This document shows, piece after piece, positions 13,267-19,065 of a DNA stretch of 64,000 bases. Numbering within the stretch: the first letter of the stretch is position 1; each line of letters begins with the position of its first letter. Origin of the DNA: Streptomyces roseus (GTDB lineage: Bacteria > Actinomycetota > Actinomycetes > Streptomycetales > Streptomycetaceae); the NCBI RefSeq assembly GCF_001044425.1, contig NZ_LFML01000163.1:137784-201783 (forward strand), given 5' to 3'. A program made the translations under genes and the position numbers. Below the pieces are notes generated by a model. That model searched no databases and was not told the DNA's origin. It saw nothing but the letters and a program-made list of their open reading frames with translations.

Positions 13267-13525
13267 ACTCTTCCATCGCTCAGCGTCGATGCCCTTCCAG
13301 ACGTGCCCCAGCCCGCGGCGCCGGGCGGCGGGCGCCGGGAGCAGATGCGAGGCCCGAACCGTTGACACCTCGGGCCTGACACGGGCCGGCGGGTCACCGC
13401 TCCGGGTGCACTTGACCGCCGCACCGGGCGTTTGGCGACGTCAGGGACCGGCTACGTCCTAGCGTTGGCCCGGCATGCCCCAGGCGTGTCACGCCGGGAC
13501 CCGAACCCAACGGAGGCACATCACC

Positions 13526-14077
13526 ATGACTGTCGAAACCTCGGAGCTCACTGGGGACTACGTCCTCGACCCCGCCCACACCCGCATCGGCTTCGTCGCC
13601 CGCCACGCCATGGTTACCAAGGTCCGCGGCGCCTTCCACCAGTTCGAGGGCACCGCGCACCTGGACGGTGAGACCCCCGCCAATTCGAGCGGCCAGATCG
13701 TGATCAAGACCGCGAGCATCGACACCGGCGTCGAGCAGCGCGACCAGCACCTGCGCACCAACGACTTCCTCGACGCGCCCAGCTTCCCCGACATCACCTT
13801 CCGCACCACCAAGGTCGAGCAGAAGTCCGACACCGACTACCGGGTCACCGGCGACCTGACCGTCAAGGACACCACCAAGCCCGTCACCATCGACTTCGAG
13901 TACACCGGCAACGCCGTCGACCCCTACGGCAACCTGCGTGTCGGCCTGGAAGGAACGGCGACCATCTCCCGCAAGGAGTTCGGCGTGACCTGGAACGCGG
14001 CCTTGGAAGGCGGCGGCGTGCTGGTCGGCGACAAGGTCGTCCTGGAGTTCGACATCTCTGCGATCAAGCAGTCGTAA
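13526..14077 (+). CDS. YceI family protein
   Basis: A 183-residue lipocalin-like protein that binds isoprenoid-type lipids in characterised relatives. The family signature is clear: YVLDPAHTRIGFVARHAMVTKVRG at the start, then DQHLRTNDFLDAPSFPDITF, and finally the NAALEGGGVLVGDKVVLEFD end. No signal peptide, so a cytoplasmic form as usual in actinomycetes. ATG at 13526 has GGAGG at good distance. Length equals the family norm. Single-gene unit. Confidence 0.95.
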   Translation: MTVETSELTGDYVLDPAHTRIGFVARHAMVTKVRGAFHQFEGTAHLDGETPANSSGQIVIKTASIDTGVEQRDQHLRTNDFLDAPSFPDITFRTTKVEQKSDTDYRVTGDLTVKDTTKPVTIDFEYTGNAVDPYGNLRVGLEGTATISRKEFGVTWNAALEGGGVLVGDKVVLEFDISAIKQS

Positions 14078-14389: not shown

Positions 14390-15064
14390 TCACGGGTTGT
14401 CGTCCACCGCCGGCGCGGGCGGTTCCAGTACGGCGTTGATGGTCAGGTCAACGGCAGCGACGGCGAGGCCGAGCATGTGGTGTGCCGCACCCAGCACCGC
14501 TCCGCGGACCTCTTCGGCCAGCTGCGGCAAGGGATCGTCGAGGGCGGCGGCGATCGTCATGGAGACGGTGTGCCAGGTGTCGCCCTCCTGCACGGGCGAG
14601 AGACGGCAGCTGGCGGCCCGGGCCCCGGGGATGCTGTCGGCTGCCCGCCGCAGCACCTTCGCGGCAGTGCTCTCGGCGATGCGCCGATTCCGGTCGGGGT
14701 CGTCGAGCAGCAGCATGGCGCCCAGCCGTGTCTCCGCGCGCACGGCGCTGATGATCCGATCGGCGAGGCTGTGGTCGTCAGGGCGATCCTCGGCACGCAG
14801 GGCGCGAGTGGCGCGGTCCAGGGCTGCCAGCCCCTCGATGGCCTCTCGGCAGAAGGCGCAGCCGGTGGTGTGCGGGTCGATCGCGGCTGTGGCGGGAGCG
14901 CGGGCCTGTTCCCAGACACGGGCGAGTGGGCGCCCGCAGGGAAGACGTTCACTGCCGAAGTCCAGCCCGGCGTCTGTTTCCGGGCGGCTCCCCGATCCGG
15001 GGCGGTCCGGGCGAGCGGGGGTGTCGTCAGGGGTAGGGCGCGGGTGCGGGTCGTCTAGTGCCAT
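14390..15064 (-). CDS. Anti-sigma-type zinc motif fused to Asp23-like domain
   Basis: A 224-residue soluble protein. After a proline-rich lead, residues 43-72 contain C43-G-R, then H65-x3-C69-x2-C72 (DPHTTGCAFC), the zinc-binding layout of ZAS anti-sigma factors. From about 100 to 218 the chain reads like an Asp23/Gls24 domain: an amphipathic N-terminal helix, then a strand-helix-strand run ending AEEVRGAVLGAAHHMLGLAVAAVDLTINAVLEP, matching the bona fide Asp23 proteins encoded divergently. The start overlaps the sigma gene end by 10 bases, implying translational coupling. Likely role: binds and inhibits the adjacent sigma factor and senses the state of the Asp23 complex, or zinc/redox through the cysteines. 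No membrane segment. The fused layout is seen directly; regulation is inferred. Confidence 0.82.
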   Translation of the reverse strand: MALDDPHPRPTPDDTPARPDRPGSGSRPETDAGLDFGSERLPCGRPLARVWEQARAPATAAIDPHTTGCAFCREAIEGLAALDRATRALRAEDRPDDHSLADRIISAVRAETRLGAMLLLDDPDRNRRIAESTAAKVLRRAADSIPGARAASCRLSPVQEGDTWHTVSMTIAAALDDPLPQLAEEVRGAVLGAAHHMLGLAVAAVDLTINAVLEPPAPAVDDNP

Positions 15065-15741
15065 GGGCGCATCGCCTCCGTCAAGGCGCGTCGTGCGCGG
15101 AAGAGTCGGCCGCGCACTGTCTGTTCGCTGCAGCCCACCACGTGTGCGATATCGGCGTAGGTCAGGCCGTGCAGCTCCCGCAGGATCCAGCACGCCCGCA
15201 GCTCCGGGCCGAGTTCCCAGAGAGCGCGTGACAGGGCGGCTGCGGCGGCGTGCGACTCGGCGACTCGTGGCGGTGAGCTGCCGGGGTCGGCGGTAGCAGG
15301 TTCGGGAAGCGTGTCCAGGGGCAGCAGGCGCGGCAGACGTTGCATGTTCAGACACCGGTTGGTGACGATGCGGTACATCCACGTGCCGAAAGAGGCATCC
15401 CGGTGGAATTCCGGCAGCTGTCGCCAAGCGCTGATGAAGGCGTCCTGCACGGCGTCCTCGGCATCCATCGGGTTGCCGAGCAGGCGCTGCGCGAGGGCGA
15501 GCAGGCGGCTGCCGTGCCGGCGGACCAGAGCCGCGAACGCATCGTCGTCGCCTTCCCCGGCCCGTACGGTCAGCAGGGCGTCCGGAAGGTCCCCGTGGAC
15601 ATCTTGCCCTGGCGTACGCCTCTGCCCTGCTGTGACTGCGCCCTCCGGCTGTGTTGTGGGCCGCGAGGGGAGTTCGGGCCCGCGCGGGTGTCGCGGGGGC
15701 CGGGGTCGGGACATCTGCCGGGGTCGGGACTTCTGGCGCAT
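15055..15741 (-). CDS. ECF-type RNA polymerase sigma factor
   Basis: A 228-residue sigma-70 family protein. Region 2 covers about 60-130 (AFAALVRRHGSRLLALAQRLLGN, DAEDAVQDAFISAWRQL, FGTWMYRIVTNRCLNMQR); region 4 covers about 165-225 (LRACWILRELHGLTYADIAHVVGCSEQTVRGRLFRARRAL) with a clear helix-turn-helix. There is no region 3 and the first ~45 residues are a basic, disordered extension. The ATG at 15741 follows GGAGAGG; shorter starts are possible. It is first in a two-gene unit with the zinc/Asp23 protein and divergent, across about 158 bases, from the Asp23 operon that it may control. Confidence 0.93.
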   Translation of the reverse strand: MRQKSRPRQMSRPRPPRHPRGPELPSRPTTQPEGAVTAGQRRTPGQDVHGDLPDALLTVRAGEGDDDAFAALVRRHGSRLLALAQRLLGNPMDAEDAVQDAFISAWRQLPEFHRDASFGTWMYRIVTNRCLNMQRLPRLLPLDTLPEPATADPGSSPPRVAESHAAAAALSRALWELGPELRACWILRELHGLTYADIAHVVGCSEQTVRGRLFRARRALTEAMRPWH

Positions 15742-15899
15742 CGCCCTCTCCAGCGCGAAGGGCTTGTGTGATCTTCTGCCTATTTCCGATCATAAGCGGC
15801 TTTCGAGGCACATACGGCGTGAGGGATGCGTGTGCCGTGTGTCCAAACAGTGGAGGGCACCACACCGGTGCCCGGACGGGACACCTGGGGAGGTTCCTC
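15742..15899. promoter_or_regulatory. Divergent promoter region, sigma gene / Asp23 operon
   Basis: A 158-base region between two divergent stress units, with a relatively AT-rich core at 15770-15800. Both promoters must lie here. I do not see an unambiguous ECF-type -35/-10 pair. GGGGAGG for the Asp23 gene is at its right end. Confidence 0.55.
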
Positions 15900-16385
15900 A
15901 TGTCGGACACCATCAACCCCACCCCCGGCGGGGCGGAGCCCGCGTCGAGCCCTGCTCCGACCGGTCAGGTCGGCGCCGGCACCGCGCCCCACTCCCGGGG
16001 CCGGACGACCATCTCGGACAGCGTGGTCGAGAAGATCGTGGGTATGGCAACCCGCGAGATTCCCGGCATCCACAGTCTCGGCGCGGGTATGGCCCGCACC
16101 ATCGGCGCCGTGAAGGACATGGTTCCCGGCGGACGCAGGAGCGTCAGCCGTGGCGTGAAGGTGGAAGTGGGTGAACGGCAGACGGCCGTCGACCTCGACG
16201 TCGTCGTGGAGTACGGGGTGGCCATCGTGGACCTCGCCGGCGAGGTCCGCCGCAACGTCATCTCGGCCGTGGAACGCATGACCGGCCTGGAAGTCGTCGA
16301 AGTGAACATCACCGTCGATGACGTCCACCTGCCCGACGAGGAAGACGACGAGGACCTGGACGGCACGGCGACGCGCGTGCAGTGA
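15900..16385 (+). CDS. Asp23/Gls24 family envelope stress protein
   Basis: A 161-residue protein. Residues 1-35 are a disordered Pro/Ala/Ser lead. The Asp23 domain follows: a helix (TTISDSVVEKIVGMATREIPG), then strands (VKVEVGERQTAVDLDVVVEYG) and the final signature AVERMTGLEVVEVNITVDDVHLP. The tail is acidic (EEDDEDLDG). In Staphylococcus aureus Asp23 is a membrane-associated protein held by AmaP, and its loss induces cell-wall stress genes. First gene of the operon running to AmaP. ATG at 15900 has GGGGAGG 6 nt upstream. Confidence 0.95.
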   Translation: MSDTINPTPGGAEPASSPAPTGQVGAGTAPHSRGRTTISDSVVEKIVGMATREIPGIHSLGAGMARTIGAVKDMVPGGRRSVSRGVKVEVGERQTAVDLDVVVEYGVAIVDLAGEVRRNVISAVERMTGLEVVEVNITVDDVHLPDEEDDEDLDGTATRVQ

Positions 16386-16496
16386 CCCACACGCGATCCG
16401 CGCGCCAATGCCCCGGTCGCGATCCGCGAGCGAAGTGCGAGCGAAGCGATCCCGACACGGCACAAGCAGATTGTTGCGAAAGAGCAGGTGAGTGAG

Positions 16497-16673
16497 ATGA
16501 GCGCAGCGGCAGTGGGCCTGCTGGCCGGCATGGCTCTGGGATTCGCCGCATTCTTCGGCGGATTCTGGGCCTTCCTCCTGGTGCTGGTCCTCGGCGCGGT
16601 CGGCCTGGGGCTCGGCCTGATGGCACAAGGTGACGTACGGACGTCAGACTTCCGTCGCCGGGATCGGCAATGA
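16497..16673 (+). CDS. Small DUF2273-like membrane protein
   Basis: A 58-residue protein, almost wholly two adjacent hydrophobic spans (AVGLLAGMALGFAAFFGGFWAFLLVLVLGAVGLGLGL; shown in part: residues about 4-40) with a basic C-terminal tail ending in RRRDRQ. Size, composition and position match the DUF2273-type peptides that accompany Asp23 and AmaP. ATG at 16497 is preferred over a GTG three codons earlier because of the AGG spacing. Its stop overlaps the next start (ATGA), so the two are translationally coupled. Confidence 0.8.
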   Translation: MSAAAVGLLAGMALGFAAFFGGFWAFLLVLVLGAVGLGLGLMAQGDVRTSDFRRRDRQ

Positions 16674-17077
16674 CCTCGCATCCCGTCACCGGCCCGTCCG
16701 CAGGATCGGCCGACGCCTCACCCGTGGCGGCGGTGCCCCCGGCGGAACGCGGCGCCACGGTCATCCCGGACAAGGTCGTGGCCCGCATCGCGGCCCGGGC
16801 CGCCCGGGAGGCGCTGGCCGGGGGAGCGGCGGCGTCACCCGAGCGCGGCAGTCCGGGTACTCCGAGCGCCTCCGTCACCACCGGGAACGGCACGGTGCGA
16901 CTGAGCCTCTCCATGAACCTGCCCTATCCCACGGACCTCGCGACCGCCTCTCGCCGCGTGCAGCAATACGTCGGCGAGAAGGTCAGCCGACTGACCGGGA
17001 TGAAGGTCACCGAGGTCTCTGTGGTCATCGAGCAACTCGTCGCCTCCGGCGGCCCTCGGCAAGGCCGTGTGCAGTGA
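16670..17077 (+). CDS. Second Asp23/Gls24 family protein
   Basis: A 135-residue protein with a shorter Asp23 domain. It has an N-terminal disordered part (1-30), a helix around ATVIPDKVVARIAARAAREAL, the strand LSLSMNLPYPTDL, and the closing LTGMKVTEVSVVIEQLV. It is paralogous to the product of the first gene of the operon and lacks its acidic tail. It starts within the stop codon of the preceding membrane peptide gene. Likely forms mixed assemblies with the first Asp23 protein at the membrane. Confidence 0.9.
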   Translation: MTSHPVTGPSAGSADASPVAAVPPAERGATVIPDKVVARIAARAAREALAGGAAASPERGSPGTPSASVTTGNGTVRLSLSMNLPYPTDLATASRRVQQYVGEKVSRLTGMKVTEVSVVIEQLVASGGPRQGRVQ

Positions 17078-17117
17078 GCGGCCGGAAGCGGCATCTCCCC
17101 TCGGAAGGAGAGCCGGC

Positions 17118-17786
17118 ATGAAGCGGGACCTCGATCAGCCGGTTCGGACGGAGCAGTCGGGCACAGCCGATGGCGGCGCCTCAGGCGCGGTCGGGCGACC
17201 GGCCGGGCACACCCCCGGACCCGGGCAGCCAGGAGACGGTGTCGTCCGCGGGCACCGACCGTGGTCCGCCCGCCGGATCCCCGCCGCGTTGATCGCGTTG
17301 GTCGTCGCGGCCGCCGCCGTGCTGCTGTTGGTGGACGTCGTCAGGGTCCGCGTCGGCCGGTCCGCCGCGGCCTGGCGCACGAGCCTCGCTCATGAGCTCG
17401 CCACCCGCCCTCTCGACGACGTCTGGGTACGGATCGGCGCAATCGTCGTCGCCCTGCTCGGGCTCTGGCTCATCGTGCTGGCCCTCACCCCGGGCCTGCG
17501 CCGCCGGCTGCCGCTCAAGACTTCCGACACCGACGTGCGCGCCGTACTCGACCGCGGAGCCGCGACCCTCTTCCTCCGCGACGCCGCTCTGCGCGTCCCC
17601 GGCGTCAGCCGTGCCACGATCCACCTCGGCAGACGCCGCCTCGCAGCCCGAGCGGACGTACGGTTCCGTGATCCGGACGAGGTCAGGGCCGATGTGTCGA
17701 GTGCCCTTCGGGAACAGCTCGACCGGCTCGCCCTGGCCCGCCCTCCCCACCGCATCTCCGTCCGGGCACGTCCCTCCCGGAAGTGA
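17118..17786 (+). CDS. DUF6286 membrane protein
   Basis: A 222-residue protein. The first 55 residues are polar and disordered; then two membrane spans are visible, about 56-78 (IPAALIALVVAAAAVLLLVDVV) and about 108-130 (WVRIGAIVVALLGLWLIVLAL). A soluble C-terminal domain (about 135-222) contains RDAALRVPGVSRATIHLGRRRL, a feature shared with Asp23-type folds. This is the DUF6286 layout that accompanies actinobacterial Asp23 operons. ATG at 17118 follows GGAAGGAG. It ends at a possible GTGA overlap with the next frame. Confidence 0.88.
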   Translation: MKRDLDQPVRTEQSGTADGGASGAVGRPAGHTPGPGQPGDGVVRGHRPWSARRIPAALIALVVAAAAVLLLVDVVRVRVGRSAAAWRTSLAHELATRPLDDVWVRIGAIVVALLGLWLIVLALTPGLRRRLPLKTSDTDVRAVLDRGAATLFLRDAALRVPGVSRATIHLGRRRLAARADVRFRDPDEVRADVSSALREQLDRLALARPPHRISVRARPSRK

Positions 17787-17830
17787 CGTGCCGGACACCC
17801 CCGCCGACGACACAGCACAGGACGGCTCCC

Positions 17831-18439
17831 ATGAAGAGGCAATCGGTGATCAACCGGATCCTTCTGGGCCTGGCAGGCCTGGTCCTGCTCGGTTCAGGGC
17901 TCGTGGTCCTCGCGGGCGGCTTCAACCTCTACGAGCGCCGGAACCTCACGCCCCCCGACGGCTGGCCGTTGACCACCCCCGGAGCCGTCGTCATCAGCGA
18001 CGGCACCCGTACCCGCTGGACGGACCAGGGCTGGTGGTGGCCCGTCGCCATCGCCGTCCTGGTCGTCATCGCCGTGCTGGCCCTGTGGTGGCTGCTGGCC
18101 CAACTCCGCCGGACCCACCCGGGGCGGCTCCGACTGGGACGACCGTCGGCACCCGCGGACGGGGTGGAACTGAACGAGCGCGCCCTCGGTGACGCCTTGG
18201 CCGCAGACGCACGCGGCCAGGCCGGCATCGGCCAAGCCACGGCGCACATGCTCGGAACGGCTCGCCACCCGGAAGCGCACCTCGACGCCACTCTCGCCCC
18301 GGACACCAACCCGGCCGAGGTCCTCCAGGCGCTGTGCGACGGCCCGCTGACCCGAGCCCGGCAATCCACGGGCCACAGCGATCTCCCCTTCCAGGTGAAC
18401 TTCCGTACCAGCCGGCACAAGCCACGTCGCACGGAGTAG
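17831..18439 (+). CDS. amaP: Alkaline-shock membrane anchor protein AmaP
   Basis: A 202-residue protein. Two membrane spans are visible: about 6-30 (INRILLGLAGLVLLGSGLVVLAGGF) and about 72-95 (WPVAIAVLVVIAVLALWWLLAQL). The soluble C-terminal domain (about 115-202) matches AmaP, which anchors Asp23 to the membrane in Gram-positive bacteria. ATG at 17831, with AGGACGG upstream, gives the normal N-terminus; a GTG at 17783 overlapping the previous stop would add 16 polar residues. Last gene of the Asp23 operon. Confidence 0.88.
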   Translation: MKRQSVINRILLGLAGLVLLGSGLVVLAGGFNLYERRNLTPPDGWPLTTPGAVVISDGTRTRWTDQGWWWPVAIAVLVVIAVLALWWLLAQLRRTHPGRLRLGRPSAPADGVELNERALGDALAADARGQAGIGQATAHMLGTARHPEAHLDATLAPDTNPAEVLQALCDGPLTRARQSTGHSDLPFQVNFRTSRHKPRRTE

Positions 18440-18714
18440 CCGGAGGCAGCCCACGGCACGGTGACCGTATGACGAGCCGAAACCCGCGGCGCGCGGGGGC
18501 GCCCTGAATCCGCGCTGCCAGCCGTCCGACCTGCGGCGATACCAGTTTCGGGTTACGCTGCGCAGCCCTCCGCTCGGCCGCGACTCGGCGATCACAGGGC
18601 CGTTGGGGTGAGCGCTGTGTGGCGACCGGCGTAGGACCGGTAACAGGGCTGGCTGGGCGGGCAGGGTTGATGCGCTCTTCCCGTCCCCGTCCCCACAGCA
18701 AGATGGAGCATTCC

Positions 18715-19065
18715 GTGAGTGCAGACATGTGGAGCTACGACCCCGCGACGAACTACACGCCGGGCACCCGCCTGATCGGTTTCAAGGTCGAAGCCAGTGA
18801 CGGCCACATCGGCAAGGTCGACGAGCACACCGAGGACGTCGACGCGTCGTACATCGTCGTGGACACCGGACCGTGGATCTTCGGCAAGCACGTCCTGATC
18901 CCTGCCGGCGCCATCGCCCGCATCGACATGAACGACGAGAAGATCCACCTCAACCTCACCAAGGACCAGATCAAGGATTCGCCCGAATACGACAAGGAGG
19001 AGCACCGCGGCGACGCCGCTTACCGCGGCCGGCTCGACCAGTACTACGGCCACGACCACAGCTGA
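18715..19065 (+). CDS. PRC-barrel domain protein
   Basis: A 116-residue cytoplasmic protein with a PRC beta-barrel (residues about 15-75: RLIGFKVEASDGHIGKVDEH, then YIVVDTGPWIFGKHVLIPAG). The C-terminal third is acidic and Asp/Glu/Lys rich, ending in DQYYGHDHS. PRC domains mediate protein or RNA contacts; stand-alone copies in actinomycetes are mostly stress associated. The GTG at 18715 is chosen because GGAG is 6 nt upstream; an ATG four codons earlier contains that ribosome site. Separate transcription unit from the Asp23 operon, 275 bases away. Confidence 0.88.
   Translation: MSADMWSYDPATNYTPGTRLIGFKVEASDGHIGKVDEHTEDVDASYIVVDTGPWIFGKHVLIPAGAIARIDMNDEKIHLNLTKDQIKDSPEYDKEEHRGDAAYRGRLDQYYGHDHS

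Follow-up and report, generated by a model that had tools for sequence, protein, structure and literature searches.

On a contig of Streptomyces roseus (NZ_LFML01000163.1, positions 137,784 to 201,783 of the forward strand; these 64,000 nucleotides are called the window in the following), the gene of an extracytoplasmic function (ECF) sigma factor overlaps the gene of a probable anti-sigma factor, in the following called the partner. Both stand divergent from an operon that encodes Asp23 family proteins and the membrane anchor AmaP. The partner joins a zinc motif with an Asp23-like domain, i.e., its C-terminal half resembles proteins of the operon on the other strand. Based on sequence comparison, we give an about even chance to the reading that the two genes form a dedicated sigma/anti-sigma pair that controls the Asp23-AmaP operon, and that the Asp23-like domain senses how the products of this operon assemble. 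The conserved gene overlap and the zinc motif support the pairing itself, while a promoter-like element and the conserved synteny argue for a functional tie between the pair and the operon. The features are as follows.

14390..15064, minus strand: probable anti-sigma factor (partner), 224 aa, zinc motif and Asp23-like domain (motif and profile comparisons)
14417..14698, minus strand: Asp23-like domain of the partner, residues 123-216, with conserved Cys153 (profile-profile matches; predicted a-b-b-a-b fold)
14849..14938, minus strand: zinc motif C43-x21-H65-x3-C69-x2-C72 of the partner, kept in 53/54 Streptomyces proteins
15055..15741, minus strand: ECF sigma factor, 228 aa, ATG start at 15741 (Pfam Sigma70_r2 E 2.7e-19, Sigma70_r4_2 E 2.8e-12)
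15819..15846, plus strand: ECF-type promoter-like element GTGAGGG-N14-TGTCCAA, 53 bases before aspA (strict pattern)
15900..16385, plus strand: Asp23 family protein, aspA (Pfam PF03780 E 1.5e-30)
16497..16673, plus strand: DUF2273-like small membrane protein (Pfam PF10031 E 3.4e-4, 21.0 bits, below the cut-off of 25.4)
16670..17077, plus strand: second Asp23 family protein, aspB (Pfam PF03780 E 2.2e-8)
17118..17786, plus strand: DUF6286 membrane protein (Pfam PF19803 E 1.9e-27)
17831..18439, plus strand: AmaP, Asp23 membrane anchor (NCBIfam NF033218, 57.2 bits, above the cut-off of 55)

A first-pass annotation of the window, made from its letters, had already placed these genes; its coordinates, strands and the overlap of sigma and partner gene (10 nt) all hold on the sequence. 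The divergent set of Asp23, DUF2273-like, Asp23, DUF6286 and AmaP genes it had named is likewise recovered with Pfam and NCBIfam, the DUF2273-like match being below its cut-off. The sigma factor shows regions 2 and 4 and no other sigma region, as expected for the ECF type, and its remaining Pfam matches fall on region 4. The start position of its gene (CAT) is kept at at least 90% in the alignment of close relatives and lies 158 bases from aspA, which is on the opposite strand.

Conservation of the locus and of a promoter-like element

We searched 295 genomes of the genus with the window's partner protein as query, which was used to find all loci (L155 was added later), and obtained some match in 195 genomes, many of them to the Asp23-like part alone. 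From these, we distinguish three sets. Close loci comprise 25 matches outside the own genome down to E 1.6e-45, plus L012 and L013. Distant loci are 26 of 52 rows with E from 1.4e-29 to 7.8e-19. Loci of a second type, i.e., without the sigma pair, are 29 (9 + 20) among the weaker matches listed, most of which cover just the Asp23-like part. We did not count L007-L011; four of these lie on contigs of the same length as contigs of genomes already included.

aspA lies divergent from sigma and partner gene in 26/27 close and 21/26 distant loci, the single miss among the close ones being L067, where the contig ends. Sigma and partner gene overlap by exactly 10 nt in 25/27 close loci and by 4 or 10 nt in 21/25 distant loci; the deviations are probably due to start codons called too far upstream. 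A class-wide survey of 394 genomes gave matches in 74 genomes from 21/137 genera, some of which again cover just the Asp23-like part. In the 23 loci examined outside the genus, a sigma match of at least 100 bits is always present, as a fusion in L138 and divided between two frames in L151; aspA is in view at 19 of these loci, divergent in some and in the same direction in others. The synteny survey that the first-pass annotation had proposed thus finds the arrangement recurring across Streptomyces and other actinomycetes.

The promoter-like element in front of aspA follows the pattern GTGA[GC]G-N13-16-TGTC[CT], which we find upstream of aspA in 25/27 close sigma-bearing loci (window included) and in 1/29 operons without the pair. 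The latter are the 28 second-type loci with aspA and L154, another Asp23 operon found in the own genome. An earlier and stricter count had given 22/27 close, 0/21 distant and 0/9 pairless loci with 0.0 expected in shuffles; the window missed this stricter form by one base. Upstream of the sigma gene itself, neither pattern nor matrix detects the element in the close relatives (0/27). In 17/25 distant loci, the sigma gene is preceded by the related form GTNAC-N-GTGTCCAA, whose spacing is again 21-22. Since the matrix was trained on the aspA sites of close and the sigma sites of distant loci, its counts for these are circular, and only those for distant aspA (11/21), close sigma (0/27) and pairless aspA (1/9) are independent.

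Beyond the genus, GTGA[CG]-N15-18-[TG]GTC[CT][AT] is present before aspA in 6/19 loci (L137, L141, L149, L156, L157, L159, all of one family; 0.09 expected in shuffles) and before the sigma gene in 3/23 (L134-L136, another family; 0.14 expected), where the pattern was chosen after viewing the sites such that the expectations understate chance somewhat.

When whole genomes are scanned, the strict pattern matches the own genome once, namely at 15819-15846; its reversed control also gives one match. In 20 close-relative genomes we count 14 matches, half of them (7) at the locus. The other 7 look like chance because the reversed control gives a similar number, 11. For the distant pattern, 11 matches in 9/17 genomes were obtained, 11/11 of which lie at the sigma/Asp23 locus, with a control count of 1. 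This points to the Asp23 operon and, in distant relatives, the sigma factor's own operon as the predicted strict targets of the sigma factor.

The two halves of the partner protein

The H-x3-C-x2-C zinc motif named by the first-pass annotation is indeed present in the partner's N-terminal half (C43...H65-x3-C69-x2-C72). The extended form C...H-x3-C-x2-C is found in 53/54 Streptomyces proteins, window included, with the first Cys at varying distance from the His; the exception is L065 with Tyr in place of His. All three Cys are present in 54/54 aligned Streptomyces proteins, and the genes of all of these except L072 (contig end) adjoin a sigma gene. For other families, we considered 20 proteins picked by their Cys pattern (without L138, L151 and L152), such that conservation of the three Cys follows from the selection. 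The zinc His is kept in 16 of them and replaced by D, R, D and E in L142, L146, L148 and L158, respectively. AlphaFold predicts helices at residues 47-55, 64-68, 70-91 and 97-117 of this half.

Two loci depart from this picture. L155:5659-6455 (G222) is a close relative with a 276-bit sigma match and the Asp23 operon, yet the first Cys of its partner is Arg, and no Asp23-like half was found after the zinc part. In L151, from another family, the Cys pattern itself is lost and the sigma gene is split over two frames.

Evidence for an Asp23-like domain in the C-terminal half, as proposed from the first reading of the sequence, comes from several sides. Residues 135-215 of the partner match the neighbouring aspA directly (30%, E 2.6e-4). 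In hhalign runs, whose probabilities refer to one-against-one comparisons and are not database E-values, this half reaches 98.4-98.6 with aspB and 95.4-96.8 with aspA, and partial matches to DUF6286 and AmaP (43-44 and 80-81 columns, respectively) range from 59 to 88. That is, aspB is the closest profile match among the four operon proteins compared. Pfam's Asp23 family is detected in 12/17 relatives of the partner (E up to 10; best E 9.5e-7) and DUF6286 in 11/17 (best E 3.1e-4). In a plasmid collection, 4/5 matching records name the relative 'Asp23/Gls24 family envelope stress response protein'.

The predicted structure may fit such a domain. The best AlphaFold model of the partner has a mean predicted local distance difference test score (pLDDT) of 71.0 and a predicted template modelling score of 0.45; it was built from 8 sequences and is the best of five runs (pLDDT 71.0, 60.1, 54.0, 49.2, 48.5). 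Residues 123-213 are predicted as helix-strand-strand-helix-strand (a-b-b-a-b) with block confidences of 65-92. A search of PDB structures with the predicted domain lists metal-transporter and ring-building domains, from which we draw no function: the cytosolic domain of MamM has Z 11.2 with a root-mean-square deviation of 1.7 over 78 residues, and domains that build secretion rings follow at similar Z (PrgK 10.6, EscJ 9.8). A sequence search for solved structures related to aspA (E up to 1) gave none, and the AlphaFold model of aspA is poor (pLDDT 40.8).

Within the domain, Cys153 at the first strand is present in 54/54 Streptomyces proteins and 12/20 other-family proteins. In the second-type proteins inspected, no Cys is seen at this position. 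The partner shows no clear membrane segment: its highest 19-residue hydropathy is 1.57 vs 2.5-3.0 in the three membrane proteins of the operon, and only 5/54 relatives exceed 1.6 (highest 1.99).

A rival reading takes the partner for a redox switch that works through thiols and zinc, like RsrA/RshA, where oxidation of the Cys ligands, perhaps together with Cys153, would free the sigma factor. The near-constant four-ligand site and the constant Cys153 in Streptomyces speak for such a switch. On the other hand, the zinc His is replaced in four and Cys153 absent in eight of the 20 other-family proteins, and we regard a redox switch as unlikely. Equally doubtful to us is the picture of the locus that goes with it, i.e., that the Asp23-like domain serves just as scaffold or as tether to the membrane, with the Asp23 operon as plain output. 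Matches of the strict patterns above control level are confined to sigma/Asp23 loci, and the 29 second-type loci retain the Asp23-like domain without any H-x3-C-x2-C.

A direct sensing of a small molecule or membrane lipid by the Asp23-like domain, independent of the Asp23 complex, appears improbable to us. It would agree with the superposition on the MamM domain, given that many of the listed MamM entries are metal-bound, and with the consulted part of PMC5437119, which ties YqhY, a member of the Asp23 family, to lipid synthesis. The likeness to MamM may, however, reflect a common arrangement alone, since PrgK and EscJ score at similar Z.

Loci without the sigma pair

None of the 29 second-type loci of Streptomyces examined carries H-x3-C-x2-C next to its Asp23-like domain (29/29), and 26/29 have a second Asp23-like domain in the same reading frame. 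aspA adjoins the Asp23-like gene at 28/29 of them (L203 is without aspA). Sigma matches are restricted to L099 (164 bits, ~5 kb away) and L197 (64 bits, ~1.4 kb), where the partner sigma factors of Streptomyces score 258-300 bits and those of other families 101-193. In sigma-bearing loci, the second Asp23-like domain is usually a separate third gene downstream of the partner (many of L068-L093, close and distant). This third gene is absent from the window, i.e., there is no match above noise, as well as from the nearest relatives L007 and L043.

Because the domain is kept opposite or beside aspA in loci without the pair, it seems to be an independent constituent of the Asp23 module, whether or not a sigma pair is present. 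We read the sigma-bearing partner as a probable Asp23-module protein with a presumably sigma-binding zinc domain, which was either grafted on or lost elsewhere.

The same loci would suit a purely structural role: the partner would serve the Asp23 complex as structural or adaptor subunit, would not be an anti-sigma factor and would share an operon with the sigma gene by chance. Beside the pairless loci, which retain the Asp23-like part opposite the Asp23 operon, this agrees with L138, where the sigma factor continues in frame into the Asp23-like domain and no zinc part is left, and with the zinc part's want of a strong match to any known anti-sigma profile. Nevertheless, we hold such a role for improbable, as the three Cys are found in all 54 aligned Streptomyces proteins, from loci detected with the window's partner as query and, L072 aside, next to a sigma gene, vs H-x3-C-x2-C in 0/29 of the second type, and the overlap with the sigma gene is conserved. 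L155, which is not among the 54, is an exception. We reject a mere chance resemblance, given that motif, overlap and synteny are met again in other Streptomyces and in further actinomycetes.

Some individual loci are described here for completeness. In L138:6603-8291 (minus strand), the fused protein comprises sigma regions 2 and 4; it is one case, its region 2 is partly unlike the window's, and it may be decaying or a one-piece switch. The own genome holds a second complete Asp23-AmaP operon (L154:4210-6425, C112), which lacks the promoter element and any sigma or partner match within 10 kb. It also holds a 131-aa remnant of a distant-type partner (L153:3426-3818, C35), where the Asp23-like half with its Cys is left and the zinc part is gone; no sigma match was found in 7 kb, and a fragment resembling the third gene lies alongside. 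The open reading frames that flank the window's locus, 13475-14077 and 18619-19065, are presumably of YceI-type and PRC-barrel type, respectively.

A proposed mechanism and its relation to known systems

In the mechanism we propose, the N-terminal zinc-motif helices of the partner would hold the sigma factor. The Asp23-like domain would dock on the Asp23 assembly and thereby report its amount or intactness. A change of the assembly would then shift the anti-sigma factor between a state that holds and a state that releases sigma, and released sigma would transcribe the operon from the element at 15819-15846. As to the sign of the feedback, we infer that an intact, membrane-bound Asp23 complex favours holding, such that its loss or disturbance frees the sigma factor. 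Homeostasis seems likelier to us than runaway. The lack of the element before the sigma gene of close relatives fits this, in the sense of a constant sensor with a variable output.

That the domain is closest to AspB suggests the binding partner of AspB, perhaps AspA, as docking site. Co-assembly of the Asp23-like domain is plausible because Asp23 of Staphylococcus aureus, according to the consulted part of PMC6954212, self-assembles into filaments, is anchored by AmaP and forms rings when AmaP is missing. Taken further, the anti-sigma factor could be an exchangeable subunit of the Asp23 membrane lattice, i.e., a sigma-carrying AspB look-alike that competes for places and thereby feeds back on the transcription of the operon that encodes the complex; we put this forward tentatively and consider it somewhat less likely than its negation.

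Several observations weigh against assembly-sensing control by a sigma/anti-sigma pair. Concerning the protein, the window's partner alone remains under the cut-off of Pfam Asp23 (PF03780; 14.8 bits vs 28, E 0.038). Its zinc part fits no Pfam zinc or anti-sigma family well, zf-HC2 matches 0/17 partner members (E up to 10), and the zinc part is not conserved in L155, L138 and L151. A one-against-one hhalign comparison with five zf-HC2 proteins of the own genome (those with a usable segment among ten such loci) yields a weak match of probability 48 over 48 columns when the longer profile including other families is used. The reversed profile gives 1.3 and the profiles of aspA, aspB, DUF6286 and AmaP give under 1, but the shorter zinc-part profile (residues 35-94) vs the zf-HC2 proteins drops to 6. 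We thus consider 'ZAS-like' (zinc-binding anti-sigma) a fair label for the N-terminal half by its motif, with a weak profile resemblance.

Concerning the locus, aspA is not in view in the distant loci L072 (contig end), L077, L078, L080 and L081, lies ~3 kb away in L069, L074 and L076, and is seen without any other operon genes in L086 and L087; it is missing from 4/23 other-family loci. The aspA element of distant loci is weaker (9/21 by the general pattern, 11/21 by the matrix), and the pairless L095 carries the element upstream of aspA, where it may be a leftover or may serve a sigma factor encoded at another place. Finally, the strict pattern detects the locus site in just 7/20 close-relative genomes, where it misses sites with one more spacer base or a changed second half. 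Its fixed first part may be followed by no more than 14 free bases, a limit that also applies to the distant pattern.

If assembly sensing holds, the sensor domain of the anti-sigma factor would be a relative of a structural protein under that factor's own control. Given a candidate promoter, a conserved pair, natural pairless versions and a natural sigma fusion, the question is directly testable by a reporter.

Among described systems, the nearest are ECF286 (model Streptomyces rimosus) and ECF292 (model Mycolicibacterium cosmeticum), which the 2022 review PMC8999054, citing Casas-Pastor 2021, lists beside soluble Asp23-family proteins; these are predicted to act as anti-sigma factors and are grouped under 'unknown mechanism'. 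The window's sigma gene likewise adjoins the gene of a soluble Asp23-family protein, and the ECF286 model also stems from Streptomyces. Filed by partner type, the window pair is therefore a probable member of this predicted ECF286/ECF292-like kind. The first-pass annotation had known of no described mechanism like the one it suggested. This has to be corrected, since such a pairing was already predicted (PMC8999054). In our literature search (listings partly covered), no experimental study of such a pair and no assembly-sensing proposal was among the papers listed. In the consulted part of PMC8999054, the zinc motif, the divergent Asp23-AmaP operon and a target promoter are not mentioned for ECF286/ECF292, and experimental data on these groups are described as lacking. 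As far as seen, the first-pass annotation and this analysis together add the zinc motif, the promoter link, the pairless form and the assembly-sensing idea.

ChrR, the anti-sigma factor of RpoE (ECF11), shares the layout: it is soluble, and a zinc domain at the N-terminus is followed by a sensor domain at the C-terminus. According to the same source, however, its sensor is a cupin-like domain, in contrast to the Asp23-like domain of the window's partner with its resemblance to proteins of the opposite operon (PMC8999054, consulted in part). With RsrA, the anti-sigma factor of SigR in Streptomyces, the partner has the C...H-x3-C-x2-C site in common, and 48 columns around and after this site align in register, which is the weak match of probability 48 given above. 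L160 of the own genome is what we take to be RsrA. Unlike the window's partner, RsrA is not known to have an Asp23-like domain. The Asp23-AmaP operon of S. aureus is under the control of SigB, where the window's locus instead has a local ECF sigma factor with an Asp23-like partner. Common to both is the combination of an Asp23 protein and its AmaP anchor in one operon (PMC6954212, in the part consulted).

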